Shown one piece after another: positions 11,451-17,142 of a DNA stretch of 64,000 nucleotides. Source of the DNA: Rhodococcus phenolicus (GTDB lineage: Bacteria > Actinomycetota > Actinomycetes > Mycobacteriales > Mycobacteriaceae); NCBI RefSeq assembly GCF_001646785.1, contig NZ_LRRH01000022.1, forward strand, positions 1 through 64,000, written 5' to 3'. The position numbers and the translations under genes are program-made. The notes below the pieces were generated by a model, which saw only the letters and a list, made by a program, of their open reading frames with translations, was not told the DNA's origin and ran no database searches. How positions within the stretch are numbered: position 1 is the stretch's first letter; each line of letters starts with the position of its first letter.

Positions 11451-11610
11451 GTCGTACAGCAGTCGCCCCGTTCTCGTCCCCGATGGCGATGTCGCCGGGC
11501 CGACCACCCCACCCCGGACGAGAGCCGGGTCTCGCTATTAGTTCGTGCGCTACTTATATGTGTACGATCTATATCGACGATCGTGACGACACGAGGAAGC
11601 GAGACGGCAC

Positions 11611-11994
11611 ATGCACACTCGACCCGGCCCCGTCCGGTGGACCGCCTACGCATTCGGGCGCCCCTTGCCCGCTTCGATGCGCGAATGGGTCCGCAACGAC
11701 CTGGTCGGCGATCACGCCGTCCTCCGGCACATGATCCGGAGCCAGATCCCGTTCCTCCCCGTCTACGCAGCGTTCATGCTGCTGCCCGGCCCGATCTGGC
11801 TCCGGGTGAGCACGGTCGGACTCGGCGTGATGCTGTCACTGTTCTTCTCCGTGGCGTACATGGCCCACAACCGCATGCGCCGCCTGGAGAAGAACGGACT
11901 GCCGGGCAACCTCGAGAACGAGCGGGTCCTGCAGCGCCGCGCAGCCGAGCAGGCCGCCTACGAACGGTGGCGCAGCACCCTGAGCTCGCGCTGA
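11611..11994 (+). CDS. DUF5313 family small membrane protein
   Basis: The 127-aa protein has an N-terminal YAFGRPLPASMREWV motif, then two hydrophobic segments (about residues 46-62 and 66-84) and a charged, Arg/Glu-rich tail, the layout of the DUF5313 family found in mycobacteria and relatives. The function is unknown and the inner membrane is the likely location. The ribosome site is weak and the upstream region is locally AT-rich. It is divergent from the acyl-CoA dehydrogenase and convergent with a TetR gene only five bases away. Confidence 0.75.
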   Translation: MHTRPGPVRWTAYAFGRPLPASMREWVRNDLVGDHAVLRHMIRSQIPFLPVYAAFMLLPGPIWLRVSTVGLGVMLSLFFSVAYMAHNRMRRLEKNGLPGNLENERVLQRRAAEQAAYERWRSTLSSR

Positions 11995-11999
11995 CGGAG

Positions 12000-12593
12000 T
12001 CAGCCGCCGATGAGCTCCGCGACCATCTCGCGCCCCCGCCGCAACGGCGAATCGGTCCGCTCGAGCTTCGACCCGGCGAACGCGCCGTCGTAGATCAGCC
12101 GGATCCGCAGCGCGACGGCATCCGGTTCGGCAACGCCGGCCGCCGTGAGCAACTCGACGAGTGTGCCACGCAGCCACTCCCGGTGGGCGACCACCGGCGC
12201 GAACGACTCGTCCGGGAATTCCGTTGCCGCATTGGAGTATTGGCACCCGCGATATCCCTTCGACGGCGCCGACGCGAGCGCCAGGTCGAAGAACGCGAGA
12301 ATCTTCGCCGCCGGGTCCTGCATTCCGGCGACCGCGTCCACCCACCGGGCGCGGTCGCGGCGGTCCAGCCGATCCAGGTAGGCGACCACCAGTGCATCCT
12401 TGGAGCCGTAGGCCGAGTACAGACTCGCGCGCGCGACTCCGGATTCGGCGAGGATGCGGTCGATGCCGACCGCCCGGATGCCGTGTTCCGAGAACAGCGC
12501 CGACGCGGTCTCCAGGAGTCTCTCGGCCGGACCGGGCTTGCCGACGCGAGGATTCCGGCCGATGTTCGACTCACCGCGGGTGGAGACTGTCAC
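12000..12593 (-). CDS. TetR family transcriptional regulator
   Basis: This 197-aa protein has a clear TetR N-terminus: LLETASALFSEHGIRAVGID, then ILAESGVARASLYSAYGSKD as the helix-turn-helix. The start is GTG 12593. A palindrome at 12622-12637 lies 28 bases upstream, between this gene and the divergent sulfur-type operon, so it probably represses itself and perhaps that operon. The Cys in YRGCQYSN could serve in thiol sensing; this is speculation. Confidence 0.85.
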   Translation of the reverse strand: MTVSTRGESNIGRNPRVGKPGPAERLLETASALFSEHGIRAVGIDRILAESGVARASLYSAYGSKDALVVAYLDRLDRRDRARWVDAVAGMQDPAAKILAFFDLALASAPSKGYRGCQYSNAATEFPDESFAPVVAHREWLRGTLVELLTAAGVAEPDAVALRIRLIYDGAFAGSKLERTDSPLRRGREMVAELIGG

Positions 12594-12621
12594 ACCTCGA
12601 GACTAACGGACCGTCGCAATA

Positions 12622-12637
12622 GACAGATCGGTCTGTC
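12622..12637. promoter_or_regulatory. TetR-type palindromic operator
   Basis: GACAGATCGGTCTGTC is a perfect 6-4-6 inverted repeat of the ACAG-N6-CTGT type bound by many TetR proteins. It lies between the TetR gene (start 12593) and the candidate -10 TACTGT (12644-12649) of the leader peptide gene, so it overlaps where the -35 should be. Confidence 0.65.
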
Positions 12638-12656
12638 CGCCTGTACTGTCACGTTC

Positions 12657-12740
12657 GTGACCCGCCGCCAGCTGACCCGCCGCCTGCACGTGGACCTCGT
12701 GCGCGTGGCCGGCGCCGCGTGTTGTCACATTCCCCGCTGA
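12657..12740 (+). CDS. 27-aa leader peptide with a Cys-Cys pair (probable cysteine-responsive attenuator uORF)
   Basis: GTG 12657 to TGA 12740 encodes a 27-residue peptide that is Arg-rich at the start and contains HVDLVRVAGAACC near its end. Short actinobacterial leader peptides with HVDL and terminal cysteines are known upstream of sulfate, sulfonate and cysteine genes. Poly-cysteine uORFs have been described as cysteine-responsive attenuators in mycobacteria. The Cys codons are TGT TGT (12720-12725). TACTGT seven bases before the GTG suggests leaderless translation. An uptake-type operon begins 102 bases after the stop. The function as an attenuator is inferred. Confidence 0.7.
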   Translation: MTRRQLTRRLHVDLVRVAGAACCHIPR

Positions 12741-12799
12741 CCGGCGACACCCACGTCTTTCCCGGGCATTCACGCCCGTTCACCGTGCCCGGGCGCCGG
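12741..12799 (+). promoter_or_regulatory. Competing hairpins after the Cys-Cys leader peptide
   Basis: CCCGGGCA (12761-12768) pairs with TGCCCGGG (12786-12793), and CCGGCG (12741-12746) pairs with CGCCGG (12794-12799). GCCGGCGCC inside the uORF (12708-12716), immediately before the Cys codons, is the exact complement of GGCGCCGGC (12792-12800). Ribosome position on the uORF could therefore choose between structures. Confidence 0.55.
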
Positions 12800-12842
12800 C
12801 GCAGCGACACACCCCAAACCCGTTCCATCGGAAGGTGCCCTC

Positions 12843-13358
12843 ATGTCCCTGTACCTGTACGAACTCGTGCCCACCGACGGCCAGGTCGACGCCGCGATCA
12901 AGGCATTCGACGCCGAGGTCACCTCGGCCGGTGGCGAACTCATCGAATCGCAGGTCACGACCGGCGGCGCCCGCGTCTTCGCGATCGCCGAGTTCAGCGC
13001 GTGCCGCGCCGCCCAGCTCGAGGCCGCCCAGCTCGACGTCGCGGAGATCCTGGGACCCGACGAGGTTCGCCTCGTGGGAGCCGACCTGGAACAGATCAAG
13101 GCGGCCCGCCCCGAGGCCGGCTACCTCGTCGAGTGGGACATCCCCGACACCATCGACATGGACACCTACCTGGCACGCAAGAAGGCCAACTCGCCGAAGT
13201 ACGCGAACGTCCCCGAAGTGAGCTTCCTGCGCACCTACGTCCGCGAGGACATGGACAAGTGCCTGTGCTTCTACAACGCCCCCGACGAGGCCGCGGTCGT
13301 CCGCGCCCGCGAGGCCGTCAGCACTCCGATCGACCGCATCCACTCCCTCGAAGGATGA
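12843..13358 (+). CDS. DUF4242-type (nickel-binding-protein-like) small protein
   Basis: The 171-aa protein looks like two ferredoxin-like halves. The C-terminal half (about 92-171), with YLVEWDIPDTIDMDTYLARK, CLCFYNAPDE and a final DRIHSLE, resembles DUF4242, a family that includes the Streptomyces Ni-binding protein SCO4226. The N-terminal half is more divergent. GGAAGG lies 7 bases before the ATG. It is the first gene of a five-gene operon with a flavin enzyme and ABC transporter, four bases from the next gene. Its role there is unknown. Confidence 0.7.
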   Translation: MSLYLYELVPTDGQVDAAIKAFDAEVTSAGGELIESQVTTGGARVFAIAEFSACRAAQLEAAQLDVAEILGPDEVRLVGADLEQIKAARPEAGYLVEWDIPDTIDMDTYLARKKANSPKYANVPEVSFLRTYVREDMDKCLCFYNAPDEAAVVRAREAVSTPIDRIHSLEG

Positions 13359-13362
13359 CCAG

Positions 13363-14412
13363 ATGACCGCGGCCATGGAACGAACCGACGAGCACCAGCG
13401 CCGGACGATCGCCGAATTCGTGCGTGATCGCGCAGCCGCGCTGGACCGTGGAGAAACCGACACCCGAACCGATCTCGCCCGCGTCGGCGAACTCGGGCTC
13501 ATCGCGTCCGGACTCGACGGCGGCGAACTCCGGGAGATGGTCGCGGTCATCGAGGACATCGCCGCCGAATCACTCGCGGTCGGGTTCTCACTGTGGGCTC
13601 AGCGCATGGCGCTCGAGTACATCGACCGGGCGCCGGCGTCGCTGCGCGCGAAGTTCCGCGACGACCTGTGCGCGGGGCGCCGGGTGGGTGTCACCGCGAT
13701 GGCAGCCGCGATGAAACACCTTGCGGGACTGGGTGATCTGTCACTCGTGGCCGAGCGTACCGCGGACGGGCTCGAGGTGTCCGGGCCGATCCACTGGGCG
13801 TCCAACGTGTTCGACGATGCACTCATCGTCTTCCCGGCGCGCACCGCGAGCGGCGACGGCATCGTCGCAGCGGTCCGAGCCGACACCCCCGGGGTCCGCA
13901 TCGATCCCCGGCCCGACCTGCTCGCCCTCGGTGCGACCGCGTCCACGTCGCTGACCTTCGACCGGGTGCACGTCCCTGCGGGCCAGGTCGTCTCCGAAGA
14001 CCTGCGGTCGTTCTGCGGCACCATCCGCCCCACCTTCCTGCTGCTGCAGACCTCCTTCTGCGTCGGGATCTCCCGCACCGCGCTCGACGAATCCGGCACC
14101 CGCACCACCGGTCTCGGCGCACAGTTCGCCGGCGAGTACGACGCGCTGCGGAATCGCTTCGACGGCCTGCGCGACCGCCTCCACGAATACGCCGCGGCTC
14201 CGGCATCGGTGGACCCGGCCGATCTGTTGCGGCTGCGCCTCGACGGATCGCTGGTCGCTGTCGAGGCGACCCGGCTCGAATCGACTCTGCGCGGTGGTGC
14301 CGGCTACGCGTCGGCGAGCGCAACCAACCGCCGCTTCCGCGAAGCAGCGTTCCTGCCCATTCAATCGCCGTCGGAAGGACAGCTTCGGTGGGAACTGTCG
14401 CAGTACGAGTAG
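13363..14412 (+). CDS. Acyl-CoA-dehydrogenase-like flavin enzyme (possible DszC/SfnB-type monooxygenase)
   Basis: The 349-aa protein has the helical N-terminal domain, a middle beta domain (LSLVAERTADGLEVSGPIHWASN, split here over residues near 126-148) and the shortened C-terminal helices of the acyl-CoA dehydrogenase fold. It lacks the usual PGSGSD and YEGT signatures. FMN-dependent relatives such as DszC and SfnB act on organosulfur compounds, which fits the Cys leader peptide and the sulfonate-type transporter in the same operon. The assignment to sulfur oxidation is inferred. The ABC gene starts inside its last 25 bases. Confidence 0.6.
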   Translation: MTAAMERTDEHQRRTIAEFVRDRAAALDRGETDTRTDLARVGELGLIASGLDGGELREMVAVIEDIAAESLAVGFSLWAQRMALEYIDRAPASLRAKFRDDLCAGRRVGVTAMAAAMKHLAGLGDLSLVAERTADGLEVSGPIHWASNVFDDALIVFPARTASGDGIVAAVRADTPGVRIDPRPDLLALGATASTSLTFDRVHVPAGQVVSEDLRSFCGTIRPTFLLLQTSFCVGISRTALDESGTRTTGLGAQFAGEYDALRNRFDGLRDRLHEYAAAPASVDPADLLRLRLDGSLVAVEATRLESTLRGGAGYASASATNRRFREAAFLPIQSPSEGQLRWELSQYE

Positions 14413-15134
14413 CTCAGGGATACAAGAGTTTTCCGGGTCTCACCGAACCCGTTCTCGGTGGCCTCGACCTGGACATCGACACCGGTGAATTCCTCGTGGT
14501 GCTCGGCAGCAGCGGCAGCGGGAAGTCCACGTTGCTGCGCATCGTCGCCGGCCTCGATCAACTCGACCGGGGCACGATCACCTGGCCCGAGACGGACGAC
14601 GCGGCCCGCCCGCACACGGGTGTGGTGTTCCAGCAACCGCTCCTGATGCCGTGGCTCACCGTTCGCGAGAACATCGGGTTCGGTGGACGTTTCGCGGCGC
14701 ACCGCGACCGTTTCGACGCCGTGTACGCAGACGAACTGCTCGACGCGTTCGGTCTCGCCGGTCTCGCCGACCGCTATCCGGAACAGCTCTCCGGCGGTCA
14801 GGCCCAACGGGTCGCGGTGATCCGGGCCGTCGCCGTGCGGCCGCGACTGCTGCTGCTCGACGAACCGTTCAGCGCGCTCGATCCGGCGATTCGCGCGGAC
14901 CTGCAGGACTGGCTGGGCGACCTGGCCCGCGAACTCGGCTTCACCACGGTGCTCGTCACCCACGACATCGACGAGGCACTGCGGCTCGCCGGACGCATCG
15001 CCCTGCTCGGGACCGGCGGCCGGGTCCAGCAACAGTGGCATCTCGATCGGGCCGGGTTCACCGATTCCGAGCGGCAGCGGCTGCGCACCGAGATCTTCGC
15101 CCGCTACCGCGACTCCACGCTCGAAACAGCATGA
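14388..15134 (+). CDS. ABC transporter ATP-binding protein (SsuB/TauB/NrtD-like)
   Basis: The 248-aa ATPase has Walker A LGSSGSGKST, a Q-loop in VVFQQPLLMPWL, the signature LSGGQAQR and Walker B LLLLDEPFSALDP, followed by VTHDIDEAL. The FQQ...LMPW Q-loop is typical of nitrate/sulfonate/taurine importers. The start is GTG 14388, with GGAAGGA 8 bases upstream, overlapping the preceding gene by 25 bases. It energises uptake with the binding protein and permease that follow by ATGA overlaps. Confidence 0.88.
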   Translation: MGTVAVRVAQGYKSFPGLTEPVLGGLDLDIDTGEFLVVLGSSGSGKSTLLRIVAGLDQLDRGTITWPETDDAARPHTGVVFQQPLLMPWLTVRENIGFGGRFAAHRDRFDAVYADELLDAFGLAGLADRYPEQLSGGQAQRVAVIRAVAVRPRLLLLDEPFSALDPAIRADLQDWLGDLARELGFTTVLVTHDIDEALRLAGRIALLGTGGRVQQQWHLDRAGFTDSERQRLRTEIFARYRDSTLETA

Positions 15135-16297
15135 GCGCGAGTATCGGCCGCCGGACTCTGCTGCGCGGTGCCGTAGGTCTCGCTGCGGCCGGTGGTGTCG
15201 CCGGCGTCCTCGACCTGGGCCGCGCCGCGAGCACGGACCGCACGAACACCACCGGCCGGCTGCGCATCGGTTATCTGCCGATCACCGACGCGGCGCCGCT
15301 GCTCGTGGCGCACCACGCCGGACTGTTCGCACCCGGTGTCGTGGACGACGCCCGGCCGGTCCTGTTCCGCAGCTGGGCCTCGCTGGCGGAGGCGTTCGTC
15401 ACCCGGCAGGTCGACGTGGTGCACCTGCTGATGCCGATGGCACTGCAGCTGCGGTATTCGCTGGGCAGCGCGGTGCGGGTGCTGGGCTGGAACCACACGA
15501 ACGGGTCCGCGCTCACCGTCGCCCCGGACGTCACCGAACTCGGGCAGCTGGCCGGTCGCCAGGTGGCGATCCCGTTCTGGTGGTCGATCCACAACATCAC
15601 CGTCCAGCAGATGCTGCGCGCCCACGGTCTGCGACCGGTGATCCGGCAGTCCGCGTCGCGATCGGCGGGCACCGTGGAACTGGTGGTGATGAGTCCGTCC
15701 GACATGATCCCGGCGCTCGCGAACGGCTCGATCGCCGCGTTCACCGTCGCCGACCCGTTCAACGCGGCGGCCGACCTGCGCGGCATCGGCCGCATCCACC
15801 GGTTCCTCGGTGACGTGTGGCGCGAGCACGCGTGCTGCGCCCTCCTCGTCCACGAGGACCTCATCGACCGCAATCCCGCTGTGGTGCAGCAGGTCTCGGA
15901 CTCCCTCGTGGCCGCACAGCTGCGGATCGCAGCAGACCGCGCCGCTGCCGCGAAGGCCCTCACCGACGGATATCTGCCGCAGCCGCTGCCCGCGGTGACC
16001 CGCGCTCTCACCTATCCCGAGCCACCGGGAACGATCCGGCACCCGCAGTGGCAACCGCAGCAGATCGGTTATCAGCCGTTCCCGTTCCCGAGTTTCACCG
16101 AGGCGCTGGCGCTGGCCATGCACGACACCGTCGTCGACGGCGACACCCGTTTCCTGTCGCGTCTCGATCCTGCGACCGTGCACACCGACCTGGTCGACGA
16201 CCGTTTCGTGCGCACGTCCCTGAGCCGGGTCGACGGCACCGCCGCGTTCGGTCTGCCCGCAGATCTCACCCGTATCGAGGAGGTCGATCCTTCATGA
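15131..16297 (+). CDS. ABC transporter substrate-binding protein, Tat-exported (SsuA/NrtA-like)
   Basis: The 388-aa protein begins with a twin-arginine signal (GRRTLLRG, Arg7-Arg8) and a hydrophobic alanine-rich segment. The mature part starts RLRIGYLPITDAAPLLVAHHAGLF, the hallmark of the nitrate/sulfonate/taurine/thiamine-precursor binding family; further matches are the WASLAEAF and PFWWSIHN stretches. No lipobox Cys is seen, so it is either soluble outside the membrane or held by its signal. The ligand is unknown; an organosulfur compound is inferred from the operon. Confidence 0.85.
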   Translation: MSASIGRRTLLRGAVGLAAAGGVAGVLDLGRAASTDRTNTTGRLRIGYLPITDAAPLLVAHHAGLFAPGVVDDARPVLFRSWASLAEAFVTRQVDVVHLLMPMALQLRYSLGSAVRVLGWNHTNGSALTVAPDVTELGQLAGRQVAIPFWWSIHNITVQQMLRAHGLRPVIRQSASRSAGTVELVVMSPSDMIPALANGSIAAFTVADPFNAAADLRGIGRIHRFLGDVWREHACCALLVHEDLIDRNPAVVQQVSDSLVAAQLRIAADRAAAAKALTDGYLPQPLPAVTRALTYPEPPGTIRHPQWQPQQIGYQPFPFPSFTEALALAMHDTVVDGDTRFLSRLDPATVHTDLVDDRFVRTSLSRVDGTAAFGLPADLTRIEEVDPS

Positions 16298-17142
16298 GCA
16301 CCACCGCGCTCGCCCCCAGCGCCACCGCTCGTCCGCGCCGGGATGCGTGGTGGCCCCCGTTCGCCGCGATCGCCGTCGCCGTGTTCGTCTGGTGGCTGCT
16401 CACCACCGTCGTCGCCGGATCCGATTCGCTGGTGCGCGAATTCGCACCACAGCATGTCCTCCCCGCCCTCGGCGACCTGATCTCCCGCGGCGTCCTGCTG
16501 CCGGACATCGCAGCGAGCATGTGGCGTCTGCTCGTCGGCCTGTCGATCGCGGCCGTGGTCGGAATTCCGCTCGGTCTGCTCATCGGCCTGAACCCGGTCG
16601 TCGAGCGCGCGTCGATGCCGGTGGTGCAGTTCCTGCGGATGATCTCCCCACTGTCGTGGGCGCCGATCGCGGTGGCACTGTTCGGGATCGGTCACCAGCC
16701 GGTGTTCTTTCTCATCGCCGCGGCGGCGGTGTGGCCGATCGTCATCAACACCGCGGCCGGTGTGCACGGCATCGATCCCGGGCATCTGCTCGTCGCACGG
16801 TCGTTCGGCGCGACCCGCCTCGAACAGTTGACGTCCGTGGTGCTCCCCGCGATCCGCGGTCAGGTGCAGACCGGCCTGCGGGTCGGTCTGGGCATCGCGT
16901 GGGTGGTTCTCGTTCCGGCCGAGATGCTCGGTGTCCGGTCCGGTCTGGGCTACCAGATCCTCAACGCCCGGGATCAGCTCGCCTACGACCAGGTGATGGC
17001 CGTGATCGTCGTGATCGGTGCCCTGGGCTTCTGCCTGGACTGGGCCGCCCGCCACCTGCTGCGGGAGCGCCGGCGGCCCGTGCCCGTCGAGGACGCCGAC
17101 GATCCCCGGTCTCCCGCTCCCCCGGCCACCGGGAGCCGATAG
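16294..17142 (+). CDS. ABC transporter permease (SsuC/TauC-like)
   Basis: The 282-aa protein has about six membrane helices and the EAA-type loop GHLLVARSFGATRLEQLTSVVLP before the last helices, with the SxxxGLxxGxxxAWxxxVxAExL pattern (LRVGLGIAWVVLVPAEML) typical of sulfonate/nitrate importer permeases. Its ATG overlaps the stop of the binding-protein gene (ATGA). It closes the operon. A convergent hydrolase gene ends 50 bases away and no clear terminator lies between them. Confidence 0.88.
   Translation: MSTTALAPSATARPRRDAWWPPFAAIAVAVFVWWLLTTVVAGSDSLVREFAPQHVLPALGDLISRGVLLPDIAASMWRLLVGLSIAAVVGIPLGLLIGLNPVVERASMPVVQFLRMISPLSWAPIAVALFGIGHQPVFFLIAAAAVWPIVINTAAGVHGIDPGHLLVARSFGATRLEQLTSVVLPAIRGQVQTGLRVGLGIAWVVLVPAEMLGVRSGLGYQILNARDQLAYDQVMAVIVVIGALGFCLDWAARHLLRERRRPVPVEDADDPRSPAPPATGSR

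Follow-up and report, generated by a model that had tools for sequence, protein, structure and literature searches.

A putative leaderless cysteine leader peptide and a candidate TetR operator precede a sulfur-scavenging-like operon in Rhodococcus phenolicus

The window analysed here is a stretch of 64,000 nucleotides from R. phenolicus (contig NZ_LRRH01000022.1, positions 1 to 64,000 of the forward strand), to which all positions refer. Within it, an intergenic region of 249 nt separates a minus-strand gene for a TetR-family regulator from a divergent plus-strand operon starting at 12843. The regulator and the operon comprise the following features.

12000..12593, minus strand: divergent TetR-family regulator gene (Pfam TetR_N, E 3e-12)
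12830..12835, plus strand: Shine-Dalgarno GGAAGG of the first operon gene (from sequence)
12843..13358, plus strand: DUF4242 / SCO4226-like protein, first operon gene (Pfam PF14026, E 3e-22)
13363..14412, plus strand: acyl-CoA-dehydrogenase-like flavin enzyme (nearest curated family SfnB, TIGR04022, 33.8 bits against a cut-off of 431, E 1.7e-8)
14388..15134, plus strand: ABC transporter ATPase of the sulfate/sulfonate/taurine/nitrate type (profile matches)
15131..16297, plus strand: SsuA-like substrate-binding protein (TIGR01728 SsuA_fam, E 5e-20, below cut-off; NMT1_2, E 4e-39)
16294..17142, plus strand: ABC permease (BPD_transp_1, E 5e-25)

The DUF4242 protein has its nearest named relatives in Rhodococcus sp. 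HM1 (95% identity) and R. zopfii (93%), and the order of the operon genes is kept in Rhodococcus, Nocardia and mycobacterial loci. The best curated match of the flavin enzyme, below the cut-off, is SfnB, a sulfur acquisition oxidoreductase, and by its gene content the operon looks like one for sulfur scavenging. Because an SfnB-like enzyme is joined here to an SsuA/SsuB-like ABC transporter, control by sulfur is expected and not odd. An earlier note on this DNA had held that such an operon is not usually named as sulfur-regulated, a view that the SfnB-like enzyme, the SsuA-like protein and the sulfonate-type ABC transporter do not support; the same three place the upstream open reading frame (uORF) described below ahead of cysteine/sulfur genes.

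The intergenic region reads, on the plus strand, TAGACAGATCGGTCTGTCC from 12620, a -10 hexamer, a GTG, a short frame, an 89-nt spacer, GGAAGG and the ATG at 12843, and contains the following features.

12620..12625, plus strand: -35-like hexamer TAGACA with an 18-nt spacer to the -10 (inferred from sequence; a consensus scan did not pick it)
12622..12637, no strand assigned: candidate TetR-type operator GACAGA-tcgg-TCTGTC over the -35 region (from sequence; conserved; single genomic site)
12644..12649, plus strand: -10 hexamer TACTGT (NANNNT, mostly TANNNT, lies 6-8 nt before the GTG in 27/27 loci)
12657..12740, plus strand: probably leaderless uORF for a putative cysteine leader peptide, VTRRQLTRRLHVDLVRVAGAACCHIPR (NF042934, 36.6 bits against a cut-off of 27; conserved in 27 loci)
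12677..12711, plus strand: predicted RNA hairpin with arms 12677-12690 and 12698-12711 (covariation and folding; 14 pairs, of which the window forms 12)
12708..12716, plus strand: pre-Cys segment GCCGGCGCC (present; pairs with 12792-12800 no better than expected by chance and without conservation)
12720..12725, plus strand: putative sensor codons TGT TGT, Cys22 and Cys23 (Cys22 invariant, Cys23 in 14/27 loci)
12741..12829, plus strand: untranslated spacer, C-rich and G-poor, of rut-like composition (no intrinsic terminator)
12792..12800, plus strand: GGCGCCGGC, partner of 12708-12716 or, alternatively, of 12741-12746 (ensemble folding with ribosome-blocked segments)

The uORF runs for 27 codons from the GTG at 12657 to the stop codon TGA at 12738-12740, and is present as the earlier note had read it, with HVDLVRV and Cys-Cys. 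The same uORF stands upstream of DUF4242 orthologues in 27 distinct loci of Rhodococcus, Prescottella, Nocardia and related genera, where the aligned upstream sequences have GTG as the start codon throughout and the peptides score 32.0-37.5 bits against NF042934. The mRNA probably begins at 12657, since the -10 hexamer TACTGT ends 7 nt ahead of the GTG. There are two Cys codons in the window uORF, one of them invariant; the earlier note had named a lack of Cys codon conservation in relatives as one outcome that would refute the leader, and Cys22 is kept in 27/27 loci, while most of the loci that do not have Cys23 carry Arg at that place. Because it matches NF042934 above the cut-off and is conserved in 27 loci, we take the uORF to be real. 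Its frame is also open back to 11583, giving a spurious 385-aa frame (11583-12740, plus strand) opposite tetR, within which an automatic gene caller could hide the leader.

By profile score the window leader joins an already known family of actinobacterial leader peptides as a new member. It scores 36.6 bits (cut-off 27, E 2e-9) against NCBIfam NF042934, a family of the class cis_reg_atten, with which it shares the motif RRxHVDLxRV...C and the form of a small leaderless-type uORF before sulfur genes; it differs in carrying Val instead of the commoner Cys or Gln in DLxR, and in its operon. A six-frame profile search of the whole genome returned the uORF as the best match (E 1e-7), with three more matches above the cut-off and three plausible ones below it. 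This Rhodococcus genome holds about seven family leaders, four above the curated cut-off and most before sulfur genes: the others precede DUF4395 plus a rhodanese sulfurtransferase in the arrangement of the Ms5788/cysA2 type, sulfite reductase, a flavin reductase-like protein, an FprA-like reductase and an oligopeptide-type binding protein. Two of them merit separate description. First, at G000:C7:50004-50060 (L003, L170) lies an apparent orthologue of the Ms5788A polycysteine leader, LTRRRAVDLCRLGGCCCSC, which precedes DUF4395 plus the sulfurtransferase and, at 43.7 bits, falls just below the equivalog cut-off of 45. Second, a leader with seven Cys at G000:C161:59095-59151 (L008, L173), of the Ms4527A type (39.1 bits, cut-off 45), precedes sulfite reductase, whose frame is open back past the leader, so that an automatic start call could absorb it.

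At E <= 0.001, family members turned up in 110 of the 148 genomes searched at class level and in 135 of the 150 searched at order level, while 14 control genomes gave no match at this threshold. Leaders in other Actinomycetes stand before sulfite reductase, DUF4395 plus sulfurtransferase, sulfatase, sulfonate/sulfate-type binding proteins, APS kinase and LLM-type monooxygenases, assignments made by eye from the sequences of the first downstream proteins without a profile search. Six genomes of the class-level search (G239, G240, G257, G298, G299 and G319) carry 9-11 NF042934-type leaders each, numbers that suggest a large ribosome-read cysteine regulon. Many members (L136, L137, L140, L142, L145, L148, L158-L160 and L162) have a single Cys or few Cys after RxHVDL[QVL]R[VT]. 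A plasmid search for more copies of the leader gave only two weak Streptomyces matches.

The palindrome that the earlier note had placed over the -35 region as a TetR site is present, as GACAGA-tcgg-TCTGTC at 12622-12637. In the form TAGACAGa-n-TCTGTC(TA) it is kept over the -35 in 27/27 uORF loci, and 18 loci that have no uORF carry it ahead of the operon as well; a degenerate pattern built on the conserved sites, searched with at most one mismatch, finds the operator nowhere else in the 6.28-Mb genome. In nearly all of these loci tetR is divergent from the operon. Its orthologue is so placed in the Rhodococcus, Nocardia and mycobacterial loci; none was detected in those of Kocuria, Dietzia and Actinomadura. 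Since the palindrome sits at the promoter of the operon divergent from tetR and is conserved together with it, we infer that the dedicated TetR binds 12622-12637. The combination that had been suggested, a leaderless cysteine-leader uORF with a TetR operator on its promoter, is supported at the level of sequence.

In Mycolicibacterium, Mycobacteroides and Mycolicibacter the tetR gene, the operator and the operon are kept and the leader is absent, with the start codon about 40-60 nt after the operator. In the 130 nt upstream of the start, the mycobacterial DUF4242 operons L049-L075 and L087 have the same TetR operator and no cysteine leader, and in some of them the operator is a perfect palindrome of 22 bp, ATAGACAGACCTGTCTGTCTAT. 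The leader is likewise missing from the Kocuria, Dietzia and Actinomadura homologues. Read most simply, this distribution would mean that the leader came in as a module, inserted between a promoter and an operon that were both already there; the alternative is a loss in mycobacteria. The mycobacterial and Rhodococcus loci offer a clean comparison, provided by nature, of how the operon is controlled when the leader is present and when it is absent. Four Kocuria loci (L076, L077, L078 and L085) share a conserved stretch, AATGTTGCGCAGTGTG, about 70-110 nt upstream of DUF4242, in L085 as the variant CTATGTTGC, and L081 and L093 have a similar stretch, CGATGTTGCGAA. The Kocuria stretch can encode a very short Cys-Cys frame (VSAQCCAV) and may represent either an unrelated operator or a Cys leader of independent origin.

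Just before the Cys codons, a predicted RNA hairpin is conserved with repeated compensatory, partly synonymous changes. It occupies codons 7-19 (TRRLHVDLVRVAG) and folds in most orthologues. Over 20 distinct sequences 85% of the cells pair, against 26-53% with the arms slid, 5 of the 14 pairs are changed on both sides, and the covariation score was attained by none of 500 shuffles, figures in which independence is overstated since the sequences are related; these sequences had also served to derive the structure. Several of the changes fall at synonymous sites. Arg8 is encoded by CGC, CGT or CGA in step with a G, A or T at the first position of codon 18, and Leu14 by a codon with a final C or G in step with an initial G or C in codon 12. 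The C-T mismatches in L017, L018 and L020 look like the step before the CGA of L021, and on the DUF4242 protein tree the compensatory changes are repeated events. The native codons also give a more stable fold than synonymous replacements do (mean z -1.85, negative in 18 of 20 orthologues), although the window uORF itself reaches a z of only -0.82. This selection at synonymous sites sets the window orthologues apart from the wider NF042934 family, where the mean z of -0.46 leaves a coding hairpin unsupported as a feature of the whole family. No description of a coding hairpin in these leaders was found in the accessible literature. Because it ends 8 nt before the Cys codon, the hairpin would be suitably placed for a pause in transcription during which the ribosome could draw level.

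A further, antiterminator-like pairing had been put forward in the earlier note, in which the segment exactly before the Cys codons complements 12792-12800, the latter otherwise closing the next hairpin. The complementarity exists and folding finds a competing partner, at 12741-12746, whereas the placement is not exact, an Ala codon (12717-12719) intervening between 12708-12716 and the Cys codons, and the switch itself is not supported: its pairing is at chance level and not conserved. Compared with 200 dinucleotide shuffles of the spacer, the pre-Cys segment pairs with the actual spacer at p = 0.12 in the window and at a mean z of -0.24 over the 27 loci, and such a 9-nt pairing is expected because the sequence is GC-rich. 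Three other pairings were equally unremarkable against shuffles over the 27 loci (mean z -0.33 for the stop region with the spacer, -0.40 for the ribosome-binding site (RBS) with the Cys region and +0.12 for the RBS with the spacer). Covariation between the stop-codon region and the pre-Shine-Dalgarno region, seen by eye in some Rhodococcus clades, is not significant overall. Taken as a whole, the leader has no more stable a fold than its shuffles (z -0.56), a scan for intrinsic terminators over 12560-12900 found no terminator-like site, and an Rfam search gave a single chance-level match, on the opposite strand and far below the gathering score.

We postulate that the operon is under two-input control, by a TetR promoter and a cysteine-sensing leaderless uORF, and consider this highly probable. 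The divergent TetR would repress the promoter through 12622-12637 and be released by a ligand, perhaps a transported organosulfur compound. The transcript would begin at the GTG of the leaderless uORF, and ribosomes would translate the uORF. With Cys-tRNA scarce, the ribosome would slow at Cys22 (and Cys23) and so alter events in the C-rich spacer of about 100 nt. By this presumed direction of control the operon would be expressed when cysteine is scarce, provided that TetR is off the promoter, and damped when it is plentiful; most likely, then, low cysteine would raise operon expression through the leader. That 13 of the 27 orthologues keep one Cys codon at the site is weak for a polycysteine stall, and NF042934 is named just 'putative leader peptide'. 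How the stall might be read out is a choice, about equally balanced, between unmasking of the RBS and Rho-dependent termination in the spacer.

The first of these is a read-out by translation, in which a ribosome at the Cys codons prevents folding over the Shine-Dalgarno sequence and start of DUF4242, and we hold it tentatively, as a serious candidate short of a probable one. It has a precedent in what is proposed for M. smegmatis Ms5788A, and in the window the DUF4242 start codon is unpaired at 97% with the ribosome at Cys22 against 52% with the ribosome at the stop codon. Opening the RBS also costs slightly more at the uORF loci than at the mycobacterial homologues without the leader (8.8 versus 7.0 kcal/mol over -45..+45, p 0.013), a comparison that is confounded with GC and whose difference is not significant in two larger windows. 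However, between a stalled and a terminating ribosome this cost changes by only +0.5 kcal/mol in the window and by a mean of -0.3 kcal/mol, with both signs, over the 27 loci, and no anti-Shine-Dalgarno pairing is conserved. Folding with the ribosome at the Cys codons versus the stop codon, a comparison that the earlier note had called for, thus gives a weak effect in the window that is not consistent among relatives; as a switch, RBS occlusion was likewise inconsistent among relatives in ensemble folding with several ribosome states.

On the second reading, to which we give a similarly tentative place, Rho would load onto the C-rich spacer and stop transcription once the uORF is terminated normally, and a held ribosome would alter access or timing such that RNA polymerase passes. 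This mode was proposed by Seliverstov 2005 for mycobacterial cys leaders (PMC1262725). In composition the spacer is suggestive: C minus G amounts to 0.24 per nt, the 99.8th percentile of 90-mers in the window, is positive in 27/27 loci, and exceeds that of the same stretch in homologues without the leader (0.21 versus 0.06). The lack of an intrinsic terminator also fits. C-richness is nevertheless weak evidence, and the footprint of a ribosome at the Cys codons would reach no further than about 12732-12735, short of the spacer.

A different matter is what holds the ribosome. Nascent-peptide sensing, with R-x-x-V-D-L-x-R-V in the exit tunnel and not only Cys-tRNA shortage holding it at the invariant Cys codon, seems to us rather unlikely, although the peptide motif is kept better than the Cys run, which hints at a role of the nascent chain. 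R, D, L and R are invariant in 41/41 distinct family segments, third codon positions vary at 0.54 per site against 0.26 at second positions, and many family members have one Cys; an attenuator that counted codons would need no other conserved residues. The sequence set was, however, collected with a profile that demands the motif, and in the DUF4242 orthologues conservation of the motif may partly serve the RNA hairpin. We also think it improbable that the locus represents a distinct form of attenuation, in which the invariant Cys codon, the nascent peptide and the selected hairpin (12677-12711), possibly pausing RNA polymerase until the ribosome arrives, act together as a module gained between the TetR promoter and the sulfur operon and form, with the paralogues, the missing global cysteine response of Rhodococcus. 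Least of all do we credit the idea that the frame next to tetR and its promoter is open by chance and has no regulatory role: GC-rich DNA yields long chance frames and this one is open from 11583, but the peptide, start, Cys codon and -10 spacing conserved in 27 loci, the family match above the curated cut-off and the association with sulfur genes refute it in practice.

Returning to two-input control through a cysteine-sensing leader, the kind of leader is already known and has a curated family; to judge from the sequence comparisons, the newly seen parts are the coding hairpin, the placement at a TetR promoter and the operon. Cys leaders without terminators were predicted before actinobacterial cys operons (Seliverstov 2005; PMC1262725), ribosomes were observed on such mycobacterial uORFs (Shell 2015; PMC4633059), and the cysteine response of such leaders was shown in M. 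smegmatis (Canestrari 2020, as related in PMC9031893 and PMC13236596). With the mycobacterial polycysteine leaderless ORFs (Ms5788A and others), as far as these are described in the accounts of Canestrari 2020 and Shell 2015, the window leader shares a probably leaderless start, the Cys codons near the 3' end and the place as first gene of a sulfur operon. It differs from them in having 1-2 Cys codons and no run, a spacer of about 100 nt and a dedicated TetR operator, and its peptide scores 20.1 bits against the Ms5788A equivalog NF042933, below the cut-off of 45. Like the leaders of Seliverstov 2005 it has Cys codons near the stop, no terminator hairpin and a pyrimidine-rich spacer, but it belongs to a different operon and different genera, and has the covarying hairpin within the leader. 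Compared with classical trp/his attenuators, the window leader has no intrinsic terminator, and no conserved terminator/antiterminator pair was found. In those classical systems the ribosome stands at codons of the regulating amino acid, and a hairpin lies in the leader coding region before the sensor codons, as here.

Rhodococcus attracts study for its ability to remove sulfur from fuels, and in its model desulfurization strain, IGTS8, homologues of the known global regulators of sulfur metabolism are lacking (PMC8557817). The locus is of moderate interest for this regulator gap, for the clean comparison with and without the leader and for the covarying coding hairpin. With about seven leaders of the cysteine-sensing family in the genome, a ribosome-read cysteine response would be a directly testable answer to the absence of global regulators.
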